Below are positions 27,001 through 33,470 of a DNA stretch of 33,470 bases, in pieces. How positions within the stretch are numbered: the stretch's first letter is position 1; every line of letters starts with the position of its first letter. Below the pieces are notes generated by a model. That model was not told the origin of the DNA and did not search any database. It saw only the letters and a list, made by a program, of their open reading frames with translations. The position numbers and the translations under genes were made by a program. Source of the stretch: Longimicrobiales bacterium (GTDB taxonomy: Bacteria > Gemmatimonadota > Gemmatimonadetes > Longimicrobiales > RSA9). The stretch lies in the NCBI GenBank assembly GCA_035764935.1, contig DASTYK010000147.1:1-33470 (forward strand). The letters run 5' to 3'.

Positions 27001-29160
27001 TTGCGTGTTGTCGCTCTTTCCATCCTGTTTCTGCTGACGAGCGCCGCTGCAGCGGGCGCGCAGCTCCGTGGACGCGTTCTCGACATCGGGTCGGGTGAAG
27101 GCGTTTCCAGTGCGAGCGTGCGCCTGTTCGCGGATGGTCGCGAGCACGAGGTCTTCACCGATGGCAGCGGTGCCTACACCTTCCGCGCACTGCCACCCGC
27201 CGAGTACTGGCTGATCGTCCGACATCCCGGCTACGAGGGCGTTGAGCTGCGCGTCGTGCTGGGCTCCGGCAGCGACGTCGTTGTCGACGTCCCGCTCGAG
27301 GTGAGACCGATCCCTGTCACGCGCGTGTACGTTCCGGCCAGTCGCGCCAGGCAGTCGGCGGACGCACCGGGCACGGCGGATTCGTTGTTGACGGAGATGG
27401 AGCAGCGGCACAACAGCGCGCTGCGGACGGCGGTGCCGGCAGCACTGCGGGATCTTGTGCAGGCCGAGTCGCGCGAGCCCACGTCCGACCCGGGCGGTGC
27501 GCCCGGCCGCTCGCTCAACGTGTGGGGCTCCGCGGCAGAGCGTGGGCGCGTTCTCATCGATGGCGCGGCGATCAACGCGCCGCTCCACCTTGGCGCGATC
27601 CTGCCCCCGATCGAGTCGGAGCTGCTTGCCCGTGCGGACCTGCGCACCGCAGGCGCGCCCGCCCGCTACGACGGCGGGACCAGCTACATCGTCGAGTACA
27701 TGACGCGGGCGCCCGCCGAGAAGCTGCGTGCGTGGGGGGAGATTGGCCTGCTGACGGGACGGCTCGGTGTGGAAGTGCCCGTCGGCAGCGGCTCGGTCGC
27801 GGCGGCGGCGCGGCGGGTCAACGACGAGGCGGTCAGCGCCGTGACCGAGGACCCGTTCGAGTATGCGTACAGCGATGCCCTCGTGCGCACCGCCTGGCGG
27901 ACTGGGCAGGGCACGTCGTTCCGCGCACTGGCGATCGGCACGCGCGAGACGGTCCGCATCCCGCGTGACCTGAGCGACGACGAGGCGGCATGGGACAACC
28001 TGGCGACGGCGTTCTCGTGGGGTGTCGATCGGCCGGGTACCGGACCGCTGCTGTCGATCGCGTACAGCCGCGGCGTGGTGGAACTGCCGCTGCTGTCAGC
28101 GCCGGACGGCCAGATGCAGGCGACGGTCGATCGCGCAGCCTTCTCGGCGTCCAACGGCTGGCGCGTGGGCAGCGCGCGCTTCAGCGCAGGGATCGACCTG
28201 GAGCGACTCTGGCTCGACCGCCGCAGCAGTGCCAGCTTCGACCCGCTCCAGCCCGACCGACCCGGGCCGGCCTACTGCACGGAGCTGCTGCCGTGCGCGT
28301 CCGCGGATGCATCCACCGCAGCCGCGTTCGGCGACGTCGTATTGCAGCCGTCCCGGCGGATCTCACTGCGCGCCGGGCTGCGTGCAACCGTGGAGTCGAA
28401 GGACAGGCCTCACCTGCTGCCGCGTTTCGCGCTCACCTGGCTCGGCAACGGCAGCACTACGGCGACGCTGTCCGCCGGACGCTACTCGCAGGTCGGCGTG
28501 CTCGAATCGAACCCCGGCGTCGCAGCCACGGCGATCAGCGAGCTGCTGACGCCGACCCGTCTCGCGACACAGTACGAGCTGCGCCTTTCGCACCGGGGCG
28601 GGGCATTCGCCCTCGAGGCGAGCGGCTTCCTGCGCAGGCAGCACATGCCCGCAAGCGTCGATGAGGGGGAGTTCGTGCCCGGCGTGGAAGTCTCATGGGC
28701 AGTCGTGAGGGACCGCTCCAGCATCACAGGCGGGTATTCCATGCTCGTGCGCCCTGCCGTCTTCGACTCGGCCGGGGAAACGCAACATCTCGCGTTCCTG
28801 GGCGCAGGAACGGGACGCGGACCGCTCCAGCTCGACATCGCCGGTGTCTACGGTGCAGGCGTGCCACTCACGTCGATCGTGCTGGATCGCCCATCTCTCT
28901 TCGTCGGGGAGGAGCCGCCACCCGAGACGCTGGCGTCCATCGAGGAAGGCCCGTACATGCGGGTCGACGCGGTACTGAGCGGTGACTTCGCATTCCGCTT
29001 CAACGGCCGCAGCGTCCGGATCACTCCATACGCAAAGCTGATCAACGCCTTTGCGCGCCGTGGCGCACTGTTCTACTACCGCGAGGATCCGCTCAGTGAG
29101 CTGCAGCCACTGTCGCCGCTCCCGACGATGCCGGTCGTCGGCGTCCGCTGGGTGTTCTGA
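27001..29160 (+). CDS. TonB-receptor-like outer-membrane barrel with carboxypeptidase-regulatory-like domain
   Basis: A 719-residue exported protein starting at TTG, 4 bp after the anti-sigma stop. The signal peptide is followed at residue 21 by a carboxypeptidase-regulatory-like beta domain (QLRGRVLDIGSGEGVSSASV, YTFRALPPAEYWLIVRHPGY), then a plug-like region (about 120-230, with RSLNVWGSAAERGRVLIDGA) and a barrel ending in VVGVRWVF, a C-terminal Phe insertion signal. No STN domain is present, unlike classical FecA-type transducers. It lies in one operon with a lipoprotein, ECF sigma and anti-sigma factor. The 3' end of the gene is the first unit of a tandem array. Ligand is unknown. Confidence 0.88.
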   Translation: MRVVALSILFLLTSAAAAGAQLRGRVLDIGSGEGVSSASVRLFADGREHEVFTDGSGAYTFRALPPAEYWLIVRHPGYEGVELRVVLGSGSDVVVDVPLEVRPIPVTRVYVPASRARQSADAPGTADSLLTEMEQRHNSALRTAVPAALRDLVQAESREPTSDPGGAPGRSLNVWGSAAERGRVLIDGAAINAPLHLGAILPPIESELLARADLRTAGAPARYDGGTSYIVEYMTRAPAEKLRAWGEIGLLTGRLGVEVPVGSGSVAAAARRVNDEAVSAVTEDPFEYAYSDALVRTAWRTGQGTSFRALAIGTRETVRIPRDLSDDEAAWDNLATAFSWGVDRPGTGPLLSIAYSRGVVELPLLSAPDGQMQATVDRAAFSASNGWRVGSARFSAGIDLERLWLDRRSSASFDPLQPDRPGPAYCTELLPCASADASTAAAFGDVVLQPSRRISLRAGLRATVESKDRPHLLPRFALTWLGNGSTTATLSAGRYSQVGVLESNPGVAATAISELLTPTRLATQYELRLSHRGGAFALEASGFLRRQHMPASVDEGEFVPGVEVSWAVVRDRSSITGGYSMLVRPAVFDSAGETQHLAFLGAGTGRGPLQLDIAGVYGAGVPLTSIVLDRPSLFVGEEPPPETLASIEEGPYMRVDAVLSGDFAFRFNGRSVRITPYAKLINAFARRGALFYYREDPLSELQPLSPLPTMPVVGVRWVF

Positions 29161-29312
29161 CGCGGCCGGTCGTCGGTGTGCGCGCCGGGTGTTCTGACGC
29201 AGTCGCTCGTCGGTGTGCGCTGGGTGTTCTGACGCGGACGCTCGTCGGTGTCCGCGCCGGGTGTTCTGACGCGGCCGCTCGTCGGTGTGCGCCGGGTGTT
29301 CTGACGCGGCCG
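29134..29312 (+). repeat. Tandem array A: five units of 35 and 37 bp seeded by the 3' end of the barrel gene
   Basis: Units start at 29134, 29169, 29206, 29241 and 29278, with lengths 35, 37, 35, 37 and 35 bp, so a 72-bp higher-order period (37+35) is present twice after the founder. The first unit is coding: it holds the last eight codons (VVGVRWVF) and stop of the barrel gene plus CGCGGCCG. Unit 3 matches it at 31 of 35 positions and would still read LVGVRWVF-stop; unit 5 reads LVGVRRVF-stop. The 37-bp units carry a 2-bp insertion that breaks this frame. The array ends at the arsR stop codon. Confidence 0.92.
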
Positions 29313-29313
29313 C

Positions 29314-29640
29314 TCAGCTGAAGAAGCGGCTGCGATCCTCGGCCTCGCGCTCGATCCTGCCACACATCAGGTCGCACAGCCGGAAGATGTCATCGTCTGC
29401 CAGGCGGTAGTATACGTACAGGCCGTCCCGCCGCCGCTCCACGAAGCCGAGACCGTGCAGCATCTGCAGGTGCTTGGAGACGTTCGCCTGGCCGAGACCG
29501 GTCTCGTCCATGATCTCCGACACGCTCAGCTCCCCTGCGCGCAATGCGTTCAGGATGCTGAGCCGCGCCGGCTCCCCGAGCGCCTTGAATCGTTCCGCCA
29601 CCAGCTGGAGCAGCTCCGCCCCCAGCTCGTACTCAGCCAT
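29314..29640 (-). CDS. ArsR-family transcriptional regulator beside a persulfide dioxygenase gene
   Basis: A 108-residue winged-helix repressor. LLQLVAERFKALGEPARLSI, LSVSEIMDETGLGQANVSKH (the recognition helix-turn-helix) and LGFVERRRDGLYVYYRL (wing) are typical of the ArsR family. The only cysteines are Cys89 and Cys93 in FRLCDLMCG near the C-terminus; the N-terminal cysteine used by BigR- and SqrR-type persulfide sensors is absent. Because it lies just downstream of the persulfide dioxygenase-rhodanese gene on the same strand, a role as a sulfane-sulfur or metal-responsive repressor of that locus is likely but unproven. GGGAG lies seven bases before the ATG. Both ends of the gene abut tandem arrays. 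Confidence 0.9.
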   Translation of the reverse strand: MAEYELGAELLQLVAERFKALGEPARLSILNALRAGELSVSEIMDETGLGQANVSKHLQMLHGLGFVERRRDGLYVYYRLADDDIFRLCDLMCGRIEREAEDRSRFFS

Positions 29641-29812
29641 TGCGTGCTCCCGTTGCGTGTCGCGACTGCGTGTGCGTGTCGTGTCTCATGCCGTTGCCGT
29701 GAGCGGTGCGTGTCGCGGTCGCGCCTGTGGGTCGTGTCTCATCCCGTTGCCGTGAGCGGTGCGTGTTGCGATCGGGCCTGTGCGTCGCGTCTCACGCCGT
29801 TGCCGTGACCGC
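29641..29812 (-). repeat. Tandem array B: 53-bp units seeded by the 3' end of the dioxygenase-rhodanese gene
   Basis: Two full 53-bp units lie at 29681-29733 and 29734-29786 and match at 48 of 53 positions. A third begins at 29787 and contains the stop codon and last codons of the upstream gene (VTATA-stop on the minus strand), with 22 of 26 positions matching; homology then fades into the coding sequence. A fourth, shortened copy (about 29648-29680) reaches the arsR ribosome-binding site. In both full units the minus-strand reading keeps LTAT(A/G)-stop. This array fills the whole 151-bp gap between the two genes. Confidence 0.88.
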
Positions 29813-31243
29813 ATCATCTTCGCGTTCGACCGGCTGACCCGCCGACTGCCACTCACTGAAGCCGCCGACATAGTTCAGCACGTCGTCGACGCCATTCGCC
29901 TCGAGCACGCTCGCGGCGATCGCCGAGCGTCCGCCCGTCTGGCAGTGCACGACCACCGGCCGGTCGCGGGGTATCTCATCGAGCCGGTCGACCAGGTGAC
30001 CCACCGGGATGTTCGGAACACCCGGCAGGTGGCCGGCTTCCCACTCGGCGCCGTCGCGCACATCGATCACGTACGCACTGCGTTCACGCAGCAGCGTCTG
30101 CACCTGCTGCAGATCGACGTGATCGATCGAAGCCGTTGCGTGCCGCTGCGTACGCCACGTCTCCACGACGCCGGCGTCGAACCAGCCCGCAACCCGGTCC
30201 AGGCCGATCATCGTGAGATCGCGAACTGCCGTTTCCACGTTCGCGCAGGACCCGTCGACGATCAGGTAGAAGTCGCGGTCGTACGGCACGAGCCACCCCG
30301 CCCACGTGGTGAAGCTCCGGTTCTCCGGGATGTTGATCGTGCCGGGAATGTGCTCCGCCGCATACTCGACCGCGGGGCGCGTGTCGATCACGACGGCACC
30401 ATCGGCCAGCACCGACTCGAGCGACTGCTCCGATTGACGCGGCGGTGAGCGAAACCCGCCGAGCACCCGCGGACCATCGCGATTGATCCGCTTCATTTCG
30501 GCGAAGTACTTCGGCGGCTCCGGCTGACCGGCGAGGATCGTGCGTACGAATGCACTCTCGTCCTGCTCCGCAAGACCGATGTTGAACAGCTTCTCGTAGC
30601 CGAGTGTGCTCTGCGGAACGGCGCCCAGCGCCTTGCCGCACGCGCTTCCCGCACCGTGCCCCGGCCAGAGCTGCACGAAATCCGGCAGCTCGCTCCGAAA
30701 TCGCTGCAATGACCTGAACAGGTCGCGCGCACCCGCTTCCATCGTCCCGACAAGCCCCGCGGCGCGCTCTAGCAGGTCCGGCCGGCCTACGTCGCCGACG
30801 AACACGAAGTCGCCGGTGAACACCCCCATGGGCTGATCCGCCGACGCACCATCCGTCACGATGAACACGACGTGCTCCGGTGTGTGGCCGGGTGTGTGCA
30901 TCGTCCGGACTCGGACATTGCCGACACGGAACTCGTCGCCGTCACGCAGCAGCACGGCTTCCGCTTCCCGCGCATACCGGTAGCTCCACTCCGGTCCGCC
31001 CTCCGCCGACAGGTACAGCTGCGCGTCCGTGCGCTGCGCGAGCTCACGCGAACCCGACACGAAATCCGCATGGATGTGCGTTTCCGTGACATGCGTGATC
31101 CGTACGCCTTCCTGCTCCGCCACGCGGATGTACTGCTCGACGTCCCGGTTGGCGTCCACCACGAGCGCCTCACCACTCGCGCCACAGCCGACCAGCCAGC
31201 TCGCCTGCGCCAGCTTCTCGTCGTAGAACCGTCGTACGATCAT
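29792..31243 (-). CDS. Persulfide dioxygenase-rhodanese fusion (MBL-fold plus two rhodanese domains)
   Basis: A 483-residue fusion that should oxidise or transfer sulfane sulfur in the cytoplasm. Residues 1-250 are an ETHE1-like metallo-beta-lactamase domain: QASWLVGC, THIHADF (His56, His58, Asp60), HTPGHTPEH (His120), FTGDFVF (Asp145), WPGHGAGS (His196). A first rhodanese domain (about 275-365) lacks a cysteine at the active-site position and is probably structural; the second (380-475) has Cys434 in HCQTGGRS. GGAGG six bases before the ATG at 31243 sets the start, although the frame runs on to 31531 through tandem copies of this gene's own 5' end. It is followed by an ArsR-type regulator. 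Family is clear; preferred substrate (glutathione persulfide or other) is inferred. Confidence 0.94.
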   Translation of the reverse strand: MIVRRFYDEKLAQASWLVGCGASGEALVVDANRDVEQYIRVAEQEGVRITHVTETHIHADFVSGSRELAQRTDAQLYLSAEGGPEWSYRYAREAEAVLLRDGDEFRVGNVRVRTMHTPGHTPEHVVFIVTDGASADQPMGVFTGDFVFVGDVGRPDLLERAAGLVGTMEAGARDLFRSLQRFRSELPDFVQLWPGHGAGSACGKALGAVPQSTLGYEKLFNIGLAEQDESAFVRTILAGQPEPPKYFAEMKRINRDGPRVLGGFRSPPRQSEQSLESVLADGAVVIDTRPAVEYAAEHIPGTINIPENRSFTTWAGWLVPYDRDFYLIVDGSCANVETAVRDLTMIGLDRVAGWFDAGVVETWRTQRHATASIDHVDLQQVQTLLRERSAYVIDVRDGAEWEAGHLPGVPNIPVGHLVDRLDEIPRDRPVVVHCQTGGRSAIAASVLEANGVDDVLNYVGGFSEWQSAGQPVEREDDAVTATA

Positions 31244-31533
31244 CTTCTGCCTCCGCTCGCCTGTGCCGACGTCTTCCTGTGGTGAAGCCGTCGCACGACG
31301 GTGATCTGCCCTCGCTCGCCCGCGCCGATCTCCATGTGGAGAAGCGTCGCACGACGAATACCTGCCTCCGCTCGCCTGCGCCGACGTCTTCCTCTCGTGG
31401 AGCCGTCGCACGGCGGTGATCTCCCCTCGCTCGCCTGCGCCGACGTCTTCCTGTGGTGGAGCCGTCGCACGACGCTCCTCGGCACGCGCTCGCCTGCGCC
31501 GACGTCCTGTCGTCGCAGAGTCCCCGCACAAGC
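31199..31533 (-). repeat. Tandem array C: 56/59-bp units derived from the 5' end of the dioxygenase-rhodanese gene
   Basis: Units begin at 31199, 31255, 31314, 31370, 31429 and 31488 with periods 56, 59, 56, 59 and 59 bp; the last is partial. The first lies inside the gene and spans its ribosome-binding site, ATG and first ~15 codons (MIVRRFYDEKLAQAS). Copies read on the minus strand give VVRRLHHRKTSAQAS-like peptides, but the ATG is changed in every copy. The copies resemble each other more than the gene (about two-thirds identity to the gene by hand alignment). The promoter of the gene must lie inside or beyond this ~290-bp array. Confidence 0.9.
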
Positions 31534-31553
31534 GTCATCCGCTGCGCCGGATG

Positions 31554-31585
31554 TATTACCTTGCGGTAATATGACCCTGGGGTCA
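31554..31585. promoter_or_regulatory. Two abutting perfect palindromes, candidate operators between divergent genes
   Basis: TATTACCTTGCGGTAATA (31554-31571) has perfect 7-bp arms around TTGC, and TGACCCTGGGGTCA (31572-31585) has perfect 6-bp arms around TG. They touch each other, the first is strikingly AT-rich for this genome, and they sit between the array upstream of the dioxygenase-rhodanese gene and the porin start at 31711. The first is of the size and symmetry of ArsR-family operators and TAATAT/TATTAC could serve as a -10 element; TTGACC on the minus strand at 31586-31581 resembles a -35. Confidence 0.55.
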
Positions 31586-31710
31586 AGAACACGCGCCCCC
31601 CGATCCGCGCCCCGGCACGCGCACGCAGGTCCGCGCCGGCTGTACTTGACGATGGCGCCATTTCTGCAGCGCGCCGCCGCATCCTGCCCCACGGTATTCA
31701 GGAGGCGCAA

Positions 31711-32922
31711 ATGAGACGGCCGCTCATGCTGCTCCCGATCCTTGCCGTTGCTGTGATTCCTGTCGAGCTGCAGGCGCAGGAGGTGAAGCCCGGTGGTCGT
31801 GAAACAATCACGATCCGCGGCATCGTCGGTGCGAGCATGTTCATGCAGGATGCGAACTTCGGGCTGGGTAACGGCCAGAAGGCGCAGTTCGTGACGGAAG
31901 ACATCGAAAACGATGCGTGGTGGCACGGCGGCGATGCGCGCAACGTGCGTCTGACGCTCGGCTTCAACGGGCCCGAGGTCGTCGGCGACTGGCGCGCCAA
32001 CGCACTGGTCGAGCTCGACTTCTTCGGTCCGTTCGGCTCGGGTGGCGCCTTCGGGGACGAGCAGCCGCTGCCGCGCCTGCGCCATGCGTGGGCGGAGCTG
32101 AGCAACGGTCGCAGCACGTTCCGCTTCGGCCAGGATTTCTCTCTGACGTGGGGGTACCTGCCAGCTTCGACGTCCCGCATCGGCTTTCCGCTGGGCTGGG
32201 GCGCTGGCGGCCATATCGGCTGGCGATTCCTGGGTGCGCAGTTCCACCAGTACCTGACGGACCCGGAGGCCGAAACGACGGCGCAGCTCAAGTTCGCCGT
32301 CTTCAAGAACTCGTGGGTGGACGAGCCGAACCCGCCGCCGCCCGGCGCTGTTCCATCGGCAGACGACGGTGCGAGCGCCGGCGAGGCCGGTCTGCCACAG
32401 CTGGAAGCGCGGATCGACCTCGCGGGACGCACCGGTCGCAGCGCCTCCTGGGGCGCATACCTCGCCGGCCATTACGATCGCAAGGACCTCGACGGCGTGG
32501 GCGTCGAGGACGTCGCCGACGACCTCGACAGCTGGGCCGGGGTGTTCGGCGCCCGCTTCGCGTCCGGGCCGGTCACGCTGCACGGCAACGCCTGGCTCGG
32601 CCAGGCGATGGGGCACCACTTCGCGCACATCGTCCAGTTCCGCGACGTGCGCGGCTGGGGCGCCTGGGCGCAGGCGGGCCTCAACATCACCGACACCTGG
32701 AGTGTCTGGGCTTTCGCAGGCGCCGATGATCCCGACGACGAGGACGAGGACGGCGTCCCGCTCGAGCGCCAGCGCAGCATCCAGCTCATGCCGATGATCC
32801 GCTGGCAGGCAAACCAGCTCGCGTTCGGCCTCGAATGGCTGCACAGCCGCACCGACTGGCTAGCGGAGCCGGAGGAACGCAAGGGCAACCAGCTCATTTT
32901 CAGCGGAGTTTACAACTTCTGA
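31711..32922 (+). CDS. Porin-like outer-membrane beta-barrel protein
   Basis: A 403-residue exported protein. CAGGAGG lies a few bases before the ATG. Residues 1-22 are a signal peptide (LLPILAVAVIPVELQA|Q). The rest alternates polar and hydrophobic residues in ~10-residue strands with Gly/Asp/Trp-rich turns (GDWRANALVELDFFG, STFRFGQDFSLTWGYL, AQLKFAVFKNSW, LQANQ-type periplasmic strands) and ends in FSGVYNF with a terminal Phe, the outer-membrane insertion signal. An acidic loop (DDPDDEDEDG) lies near residue 340. It resembles phosphate-selective or DcaP-like porins in style, but I cannot assign a substrate. Divergent from the persulfide dioxygenase gene with two palindromes between them, so co-regulation is possible. 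Confidence 0.85.
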   Translation: MRRPLMLLPILAVAVIPVELQAQEVKPGGRETITIRGIVGASMFMQDANFGLGNGQKAQFVTEDIENDAWWHGGDARNVRLTLGFNGPEVVGDWRANALVELDFFGPFGSGGAFGDEQPLPRLRHAWAELSNGRSTFRFGQDFSLTWGYLPASTSRIGFPLGWGAGGHIGWRFLGAQFHQYLTDPEAETTAQLKFAVFKNSWVDEPNPPPPGAVPSADDGASAGEAGLPQLEARIDLAGRTGRSASWGAYLAGHYDRKDLDGVGVEDVADDLDSWAGVFGARFASGPVTLHGNAWLGQAMGHHFAHIVQFRDVRGWGAWAQAGLNITDTWSVWAFAGADDPDDEDEDGVPLERQRSIQLMPMIRWQANQLAFGLEWLHSRTDWLAEPEERKGNQLIFSGVYNF

Positions 32923-32958
32923 AGAGCGGAAGGCGGGGCGGGAGCTGACCGGGAGGGC

Positions 32959-32982
32959 GCGGTGCGGGTCGGCCGCCACCGC
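32959..32982 (+). terminator. Hairpin after the porin gene, candidate terminator
   Basis: GCGGTGCGG pairs with CCGCCACCGC through one bulged base around a 5-base loop, 37 bp after the porin stop. No T-run follows. It is the best terminator candidate for the porin transcript. Confidence 0.4.
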
Positions 32983-33054
32983 AGCGCCTGGGCACAGCGC
33001 GCCACGGGCGGAGTGAGTGAGCCGCCTGCTGCCCGAGCGCCCGGGTCGAGCCTG

Positions 33055-33266
33055 ATCAAAGGCAACGTTGCTTGCGTTCGGCCCGCAGGCGAAGAGTGCA
33101 ACGTTGCCTGCCATTATCAAAGCCAACGTTGCACGCGTTCGGCCCGGAGGCGAAGAGTGCAACGTTGCCTGCCATTATCAAAGCCAACGTTGCTCGCGTT
33201 CTGCACGCAAGCGACGAGTGCAACGTTGCCTGCGATCCGATCATCAACGCCTACGCTGCCCGCGCC
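33055..33266. repeat. Tandem array D: 61-bp units carrying GCAACGTTGC palindromes
   Basis: Units begin with ATCAAAG at 33055, 33116 and 33177 (period 61 bp), and a degenerate fourth at 33243. Each full unit holds two copies of a 10-bp perfect palindrome or its one-base variant: GCAACGTTGC at 33062, 33098, 33159 and 33220, and CCAACGTTGC at 33123 and 33184. The two copies in a unit can pair into a hairpin of about 9-11 bp across a 25- to 26-base loop. No gene is recognisable; all frames through the array merely repeat the unit. It lies 132 bp after the porin stop. Confidence 0.92.
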
Positions 33267-33277
33267 ACGGCCGGGCC

Positions 33278-33426
33278 GCGTTGACCTGTCGGGAACGCGG
33301 CGCAGTGAGCGCTGTCCCAACCCCGGCTCCGGGCCTGGGCCCCGGCCCGCGTCGACGCGTCGGGAACGCAGCGCAGTGAGGGGCAGACCCACCCCGGCCC
33401 CGGCCCCGGGCCCCAGGCCCCGGCCC
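33278..33426. repeat. Array E: two ~71-78-bp units ending in C-block runs with G-quadruplex potential
   Basis: Two related units begin GCGTTGACCTGTCGGGAACG (33278) and GCGTCGACGCGTCGGGAACG (33349), continue with GGCGCAGTGA or AGCGCAGTGA, and end in dense C-runs. In the second unit (about 33391-33426) the minus strand carries at least six G-runs of three or four separated by one to three bases, enough for a G-quadruplex. The remaining bases to 33470 show no gene. Confidence 0.75.
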
Positions 33427-33470
33427 GCCGTCCCAAACCAAGGGTCCATTCCTTGCGGCCCCGCGCATCC

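Follow-up and report, generated by a model that had tools for sequence, protein, structure and literature searches.

Genes and Tandem Repeats at the Locus

We analyzed a 33,470-nucleotide stretch of DNA from a Longimicrobiales bacterium (GCA_035764935.1, contig DASTYK010000147.1), hereafter the window. It contains a gene for an outer-membrane-type protein (barrel gene, 27001–29160, plus strand) with an N-terminal CarboxypepD_reg domain (Pfam PF13620, E = 7e-17), which terminates with the residues MPVVGVRWVF and a TGA stop codon at 29158–29160. The start codon is uncertain and might be the TTG at 27001 or an internal codon, e.g., at 27118. A scan of genome contigs with the barrel protein found no relative. 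The convergent gene on the minus strand (29314–29640) encodes an ArsR/SmtB-family repressor (Pfam HTH_5, E = 8e-15; NCBIfam HTH_metalloreg, 86.7 bits at a cut-off of 55). Its stop codon, TCA at 29314–29316, adjoins a tandem repeat, array A, which occupies the entire space between the two convergent stop codons.

Array A consists of five copies of 35, 37, 35, 37, and 35 bp at 29124–29302, followed by a 13-bp partial copy extending to 29315. TRF reported it at 29130–29315 with a score of 309 and a period of 35 bp (5.2 copies) or 72 bp (2.6 copies), as compared with a highest score of 76 in the shuffled window (30 first-order shuffles, 1 Mb). A repeat search found the copies at spacings of 35, 37, 35, and 37 bp and, with the units placed in register, reproduces the copy lengths given by an earlier sequence-only reading. 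That reading had set the limits of the array at 29134–29312; the array itself is real, but this start lies about 10 bases inside the first unit, and this end falls inside the terminal partial copy. With units of some tens of base pairs joined head to tail, array A has the form of a minisatellite or VNTR.

The founder copy U1 (35 bp, 29124–29158) lies within the barrel gene and ends at the T of the stop codon, while U2–U5 follow downstream on the same plus strand. The repeat unit thus includes the barrel gene stop, and the copies derive from the terminal codons of this gene together with its stop, as the sequence-only reading had proposed. In U2 (37 bp, 29159–29195), GC is inserted and a T is changed to C, and U4 (37 bp, 29231–29267) is three substitutions away from U2. 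U3 (35 bp, 29196–29230) lies 72 bp on from U1 and encodes SLVGVRWVF followed by a stop, and U5 (35 bp, 29268–29302) encodes PLVGVRRVF, again followed by a stop. As the 72-bp spacing is divisible by three, U1, U3, and U5 are mutually in frame, and all three encode (V/L)VGVR(W/R)VF and a stop, in agreement with the VGVR(W/R)VF ending previously ascribed to the 35-bp copies. The terminal U6 (29303–29315, GACGCGGCCGCTC) is either a partial copy or the original right flank.

The pairs U1/U2 and U3/U4 are identical at 63 of 72 positions, and the 2-bp insertion and the T to C change are common to U2 and U4. U5 retains the T to C change without the insertion and differs by one substitution from U2, two from U4, and three from U3; among all copies of the array, the mutual differences range from 1 to 6 substitutions. 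Since U5 is nearest to the 37-bp copies, its length of 35 bp may continue the alternation without being part of a third 72-bp dimer. The alternating lengths speak for one presumable 72-bp duplication. The earlier suggestion of a 72-bp dimer is supported for U1–U4, where both the alternation and the shared changes favor it.

Distribution of the Repeat Unit and of the Putative Insertion

The sequence-only reading had reasoned that the same unit at unrelated loci would reveal a dispersed element instead of a local duplication. We searched the entire genome (195 contigs, 3.83 Mb) and found the unit at a single locus, the next-best match being 25 bp long with E = 0.06. Across 11 genomes of the family, the only match was a weak one of 29 bp (G005, E = 6e-4), probably due to chance. 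A dispersed element, either MIRU-like or REP-like, was rejected on these grounds.

We compared the barrel gene with 29 homologues from the family and the order, the end positions and frames of which were set by tblastn. The homologues end at the same position with the pattern LPxxPVxGVxWxF, nearly all finishing in F. None of the 29 has a copy of its own end (an "echo") within 250 nt downstream, with scores of 10–19 as opposed to 43 for the gene studied here. Because the homologues share the end position without an echo, array A is, as judged from this comparison, a local and apparently derived insertion.

When 29159–29302 is taken out, the TGA, nine bases, and the ArsR-family stop remain. We sampled the genome with 40 stretches in addition to the window (833 kb in total), in which genes were called by a codon-usage scorer. 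The median gap between convergent genes in this sample is 57 bp, with 10% of the gaps no longer than 3 bp, so the putative ancestral gap of 9 bp would have been an ordinary one.

Proposed Origin of Array A

Array A is very probably a local minisatellite that arose at the 3′ end of the barrel gene when short direct repeats seeded slippage during replication or unequal exchange, an ordinary event that the intact first stop makes tolerable. Of the earlier sequence-only reading, both the local duplication of the stop region from the gene itself and the suggestion of slippage debris are supported. In the ancestor, the convergent stop codons would have been about 9 bp apart, and the expected empty site would have the barrel and ArsR stops separated by about 10 bp, with GACGCGGCCGC lying in between. 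Two sequences 35 bp apart, GACGATGCCGGTC inside the barrel gene (29124–29136) and GACGCGGCCGCTC after the stop, form an imperfect direct repeat and agree at 10 of 13 positions; an equally good match at this distance is seen for 0.7% of random positions. This pair is the probable seed of the first slip. Misalignment at the seed would have duplicated the 35 bp holding the last codons and the stop, after which one copy may have gained 2 bp in a GC run to become 37 bp long. The alternation and the shared changes suggest that the 35 + 37 dimer was duplicated next. Judged from the unit boundaries, the net insertion would amount to 144 bp (2 × 72, 29159–29302).

Each of these duplications would be silent at the protein level, as the first stop is kept and the insert is flanked by two stop codons. 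Being silent, array A presumably drifts without selection. Neither a product nor a regulatory role of the array was detected.

Gene-End Copies Elsewhere and Neighboring Arrays

To count echoes, the final 33 nt of every gene were compared with the following 250 nt, using re-paired ends as controls. Own-stop echoes were found at 6 of 682 gene ends in the genome sample as compared with 3 of 3404 controls (Fisher p = 0.001), i.e., at about 0.9% of the sampled 3′ ends against 0.09%, with the proviso that some echoing 3′ ends come from a simple home-made gene caller and that two calls are doubtful (L048 12817–13716 and L074 10771–12030). When two related genomes, including a complete one, were added, the pooled count was 11 of 1349 against 5 of 6732 (p = 5e-6), to which the single-contig genome of the order contributed 1 of 292 and another family genome 4 of 375. 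The complete genome of the order has a gene-end array similar to array A (G012, L192). The echoing ends also include those of the neighboring MBL-rhodanese gene and of L074 12162–14405, and their sequences are unrelated between loci. Array A is thus not unique in kind, as other gene ends in this genome carry echoes of their own stops.

Echoes of start regions, counted across the three genomes, are close to the background level (3 of 1294; 3′ versus 5′, p = 0.06), as would follow if a duplication spanning a stop were tolerated better than one spanning a start. When the query was lengthened, two gene starts did stand out, one of which belongs to the MBL-rhodanese gene.

The MBL-rhodanese gene, the closest relatives of which place the lineage in the Gemmatimonadota, has arrays at both ends. 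A 53-bp array of three copies (29654–29808) lies between this gene and the ArsR-family gene, and its units carry the last codons and stop of the MBL-rhodanese gene. The MBL-ArsR junction is a 4-bp overlap in two of four relatives and measures 18 and 43 bp in the others, as opposed to 151 bp here. The 53-bp array fills this gap and, as the junction lengths indicate, is apparently a second case of a short junction expanded by an array. At the other end, the divergent promoter region ahead of the MBL-rhodanese gene holds a 59-bp array of 4.5 copies (31200–31506). The units of this array match the first ~15 codons of this gene with a score of 38, reached by 0 of 3411 controls, and the array is, by this match, evidently a copy of the start region placed upstream.

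The remaining repeats lie toward the contig end. One is a CCCCGG-rich 71-bp array of 2.1 copies (33271–33420) at the contig end itself. Another, at 33055–33260 on the minus strand, belongs to a dispersed family of 61-bp tandem units, usually with 3–4 copies per site, which also occurs at L062 14708–14888, L073 6852–7094, and L074 14627–14816. The unit is an inverted repeat, ATCAAAGGCAACGTTGC ... GCAACGTTGGCTTTGAT, around ~25 variable GC-rich bases and can be drawn as a hairpin. We located about 20 sites of this REP-like family in the genome studied here, and a search of 40 related genomes at E = 1e-6 gave none. The family is unrelated to array A.

Altogether, five long-unit intergenic arrays lie within the 4.4 kb at 29100–33470, where about 0.1 would be expected from the sampled density, in a comparison made post hoc. 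Similar clusters were observed at L058 317–5306 and L048 11986–12696. The dense cluster at the contig end is beyond what plain random slippage explains.

Alternative Explanations

The exact location of array A between two convergent stops would suit a bidirectional barrier to transcription, in which RNA folded from the GC-rich repeats would keep the two genes apart. The two strands fold slightly better than shuffled sequences (z = −1.37 and −1.41), but 16 and 17 of 200 shuffles, respectively, fold equally well, and Rfam has no family matching array A; we consequently dismissed a structured RNA. Neither strand contains an intrinsic terminator, i.e., a GC-rich hairpin with a U tract, at 28900–29900, so this sequence scan lends no support to the proposal that the copies act as transcription terminators. 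A promoter scan of the locus returned nothing either. Moreover, the short convergent gaps found in this genome imply that a long barrier is not generally needed, and we consider a barrier function improbable. An artefact of assembly might come to mind for a metagenome-assembled genome in 195 contigs, given that the window is a whole contig and that the arrays sit near its end. Such a misassembly deserves next to no credence because the copies differ by 1 to 6 substitutions, unlike the false expansion of one sequence, and the similar gene-end array mentioned above resides in a genome consisting of a single contig.

An appealing alternative assigns a role to the reading frame of the copies, which would protect the C-terminal outer-membrane signal when the first stop is read through or lost. 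The 72-bp spacing corresponds to 24 codons, and the frame kept every 72 bp is a point against an account by slippage only. Read-through of the first stop appends RGRSSVCAPGVLTQSLVGVRWVF to the terminal WVF before the next stop, and read-through of the second appends RGRSSVSAPGVLTRPLVGVRRVF, ending in LVGVRRVF. The first of these extensions ends in LVGVRWVF, which agrees with the earlier statement that loss of the first stop would tend to restore the C-terminal signal, and the barrel C-terminus is conserved in the family. However, the extension of 23 residues, although shorter than the genome median of 43, is matched by about 30% of the sampled genes. The frame is kept in two of the six echo distances in this genome, which is the chance level, and the echo carriers are mostly not barrel genes. 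Among 15 sampled genes with products of at least 300 aa ending in F or W, the barrel gene with array A was the only one with an echo, whereas a spare signal would predict arrays on other barrel genes as well. All 29 homologues do without an array. In addition, a bacterial survey did not find selection for fail-safe stops downstream of the first (PMC6764699). With the echo frame at chance, the homologues lacking the array, and the carriers being mostly of other kinds, the notion of a buffer for the barrel C-terminus is not supported, and we regard a backup C-terminus as highly improbable. The stronger version, in which the frame-keeping copies were selected as a spare targeting signal so that ribosomes passing a leaky TGA finish an assembly-competent protein, appears exceedingly improbable. 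Our preferred reading remains that short direct repeats gave rise to the array through slippage or unequal exchange.

Significance and Comparison with Known Systems

Array A clearly illustrates, backed by a count of gene ends, one way in which the DNA between bacterial genes can grow. A duplication straddling a stop codon does not show in the protein and therefore persists. The case also demonstrates how comparison with homologues and with other gene ends helps to judge an attractive reading in terms of a spare stop and signal. In practical terms, the array offers little beyond a possible typing marker for the species.

The MIRU elements of mycobacteria are a dispersed family of intergenic tandem units of tens of base pairs, which can contain stop and start codons of the flanking genes. 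Array A resembles them in its intergenic tandem units of tens of base pairs with a flanking stop codon but, unlike that dispersed family, its unit is confined to one locus. The fixed-size tandem repeats of Bacillus have units of 52 or 20–21 nt (PMC8161180). They share with the arrays described here the tandem organization in a bacterial genome and sequences that differ between loci, whereas the window alone contains units of 35/37, 53, 59, 61, and 71 bp without a constant size. The unit lengths of the stronger arrays across the genome sample range from 8 to 217 bp, and we rejected an assignment to repeats of the Bacillus type.

Among the 88 VNTRs of Yersinia pestis, 10 overlap stop codons and 6 overlap start codons, and the open reading frames of those overlapping stops are unaltered by copy number (PMC3689786). 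As in these VNTRs, the unit of array A holds the stop and the last codons of a gene, the copies lie downstream, and coding is unaffected by copy number. The differences are that the copies of array A have diverged, that the unit is 35/37 bp with a 72-bp higher order, and that the host is a high-GC Gemmatimonadota genome. Array A is accordingly a further instance of a stop-codon-overlapping minisatellite.
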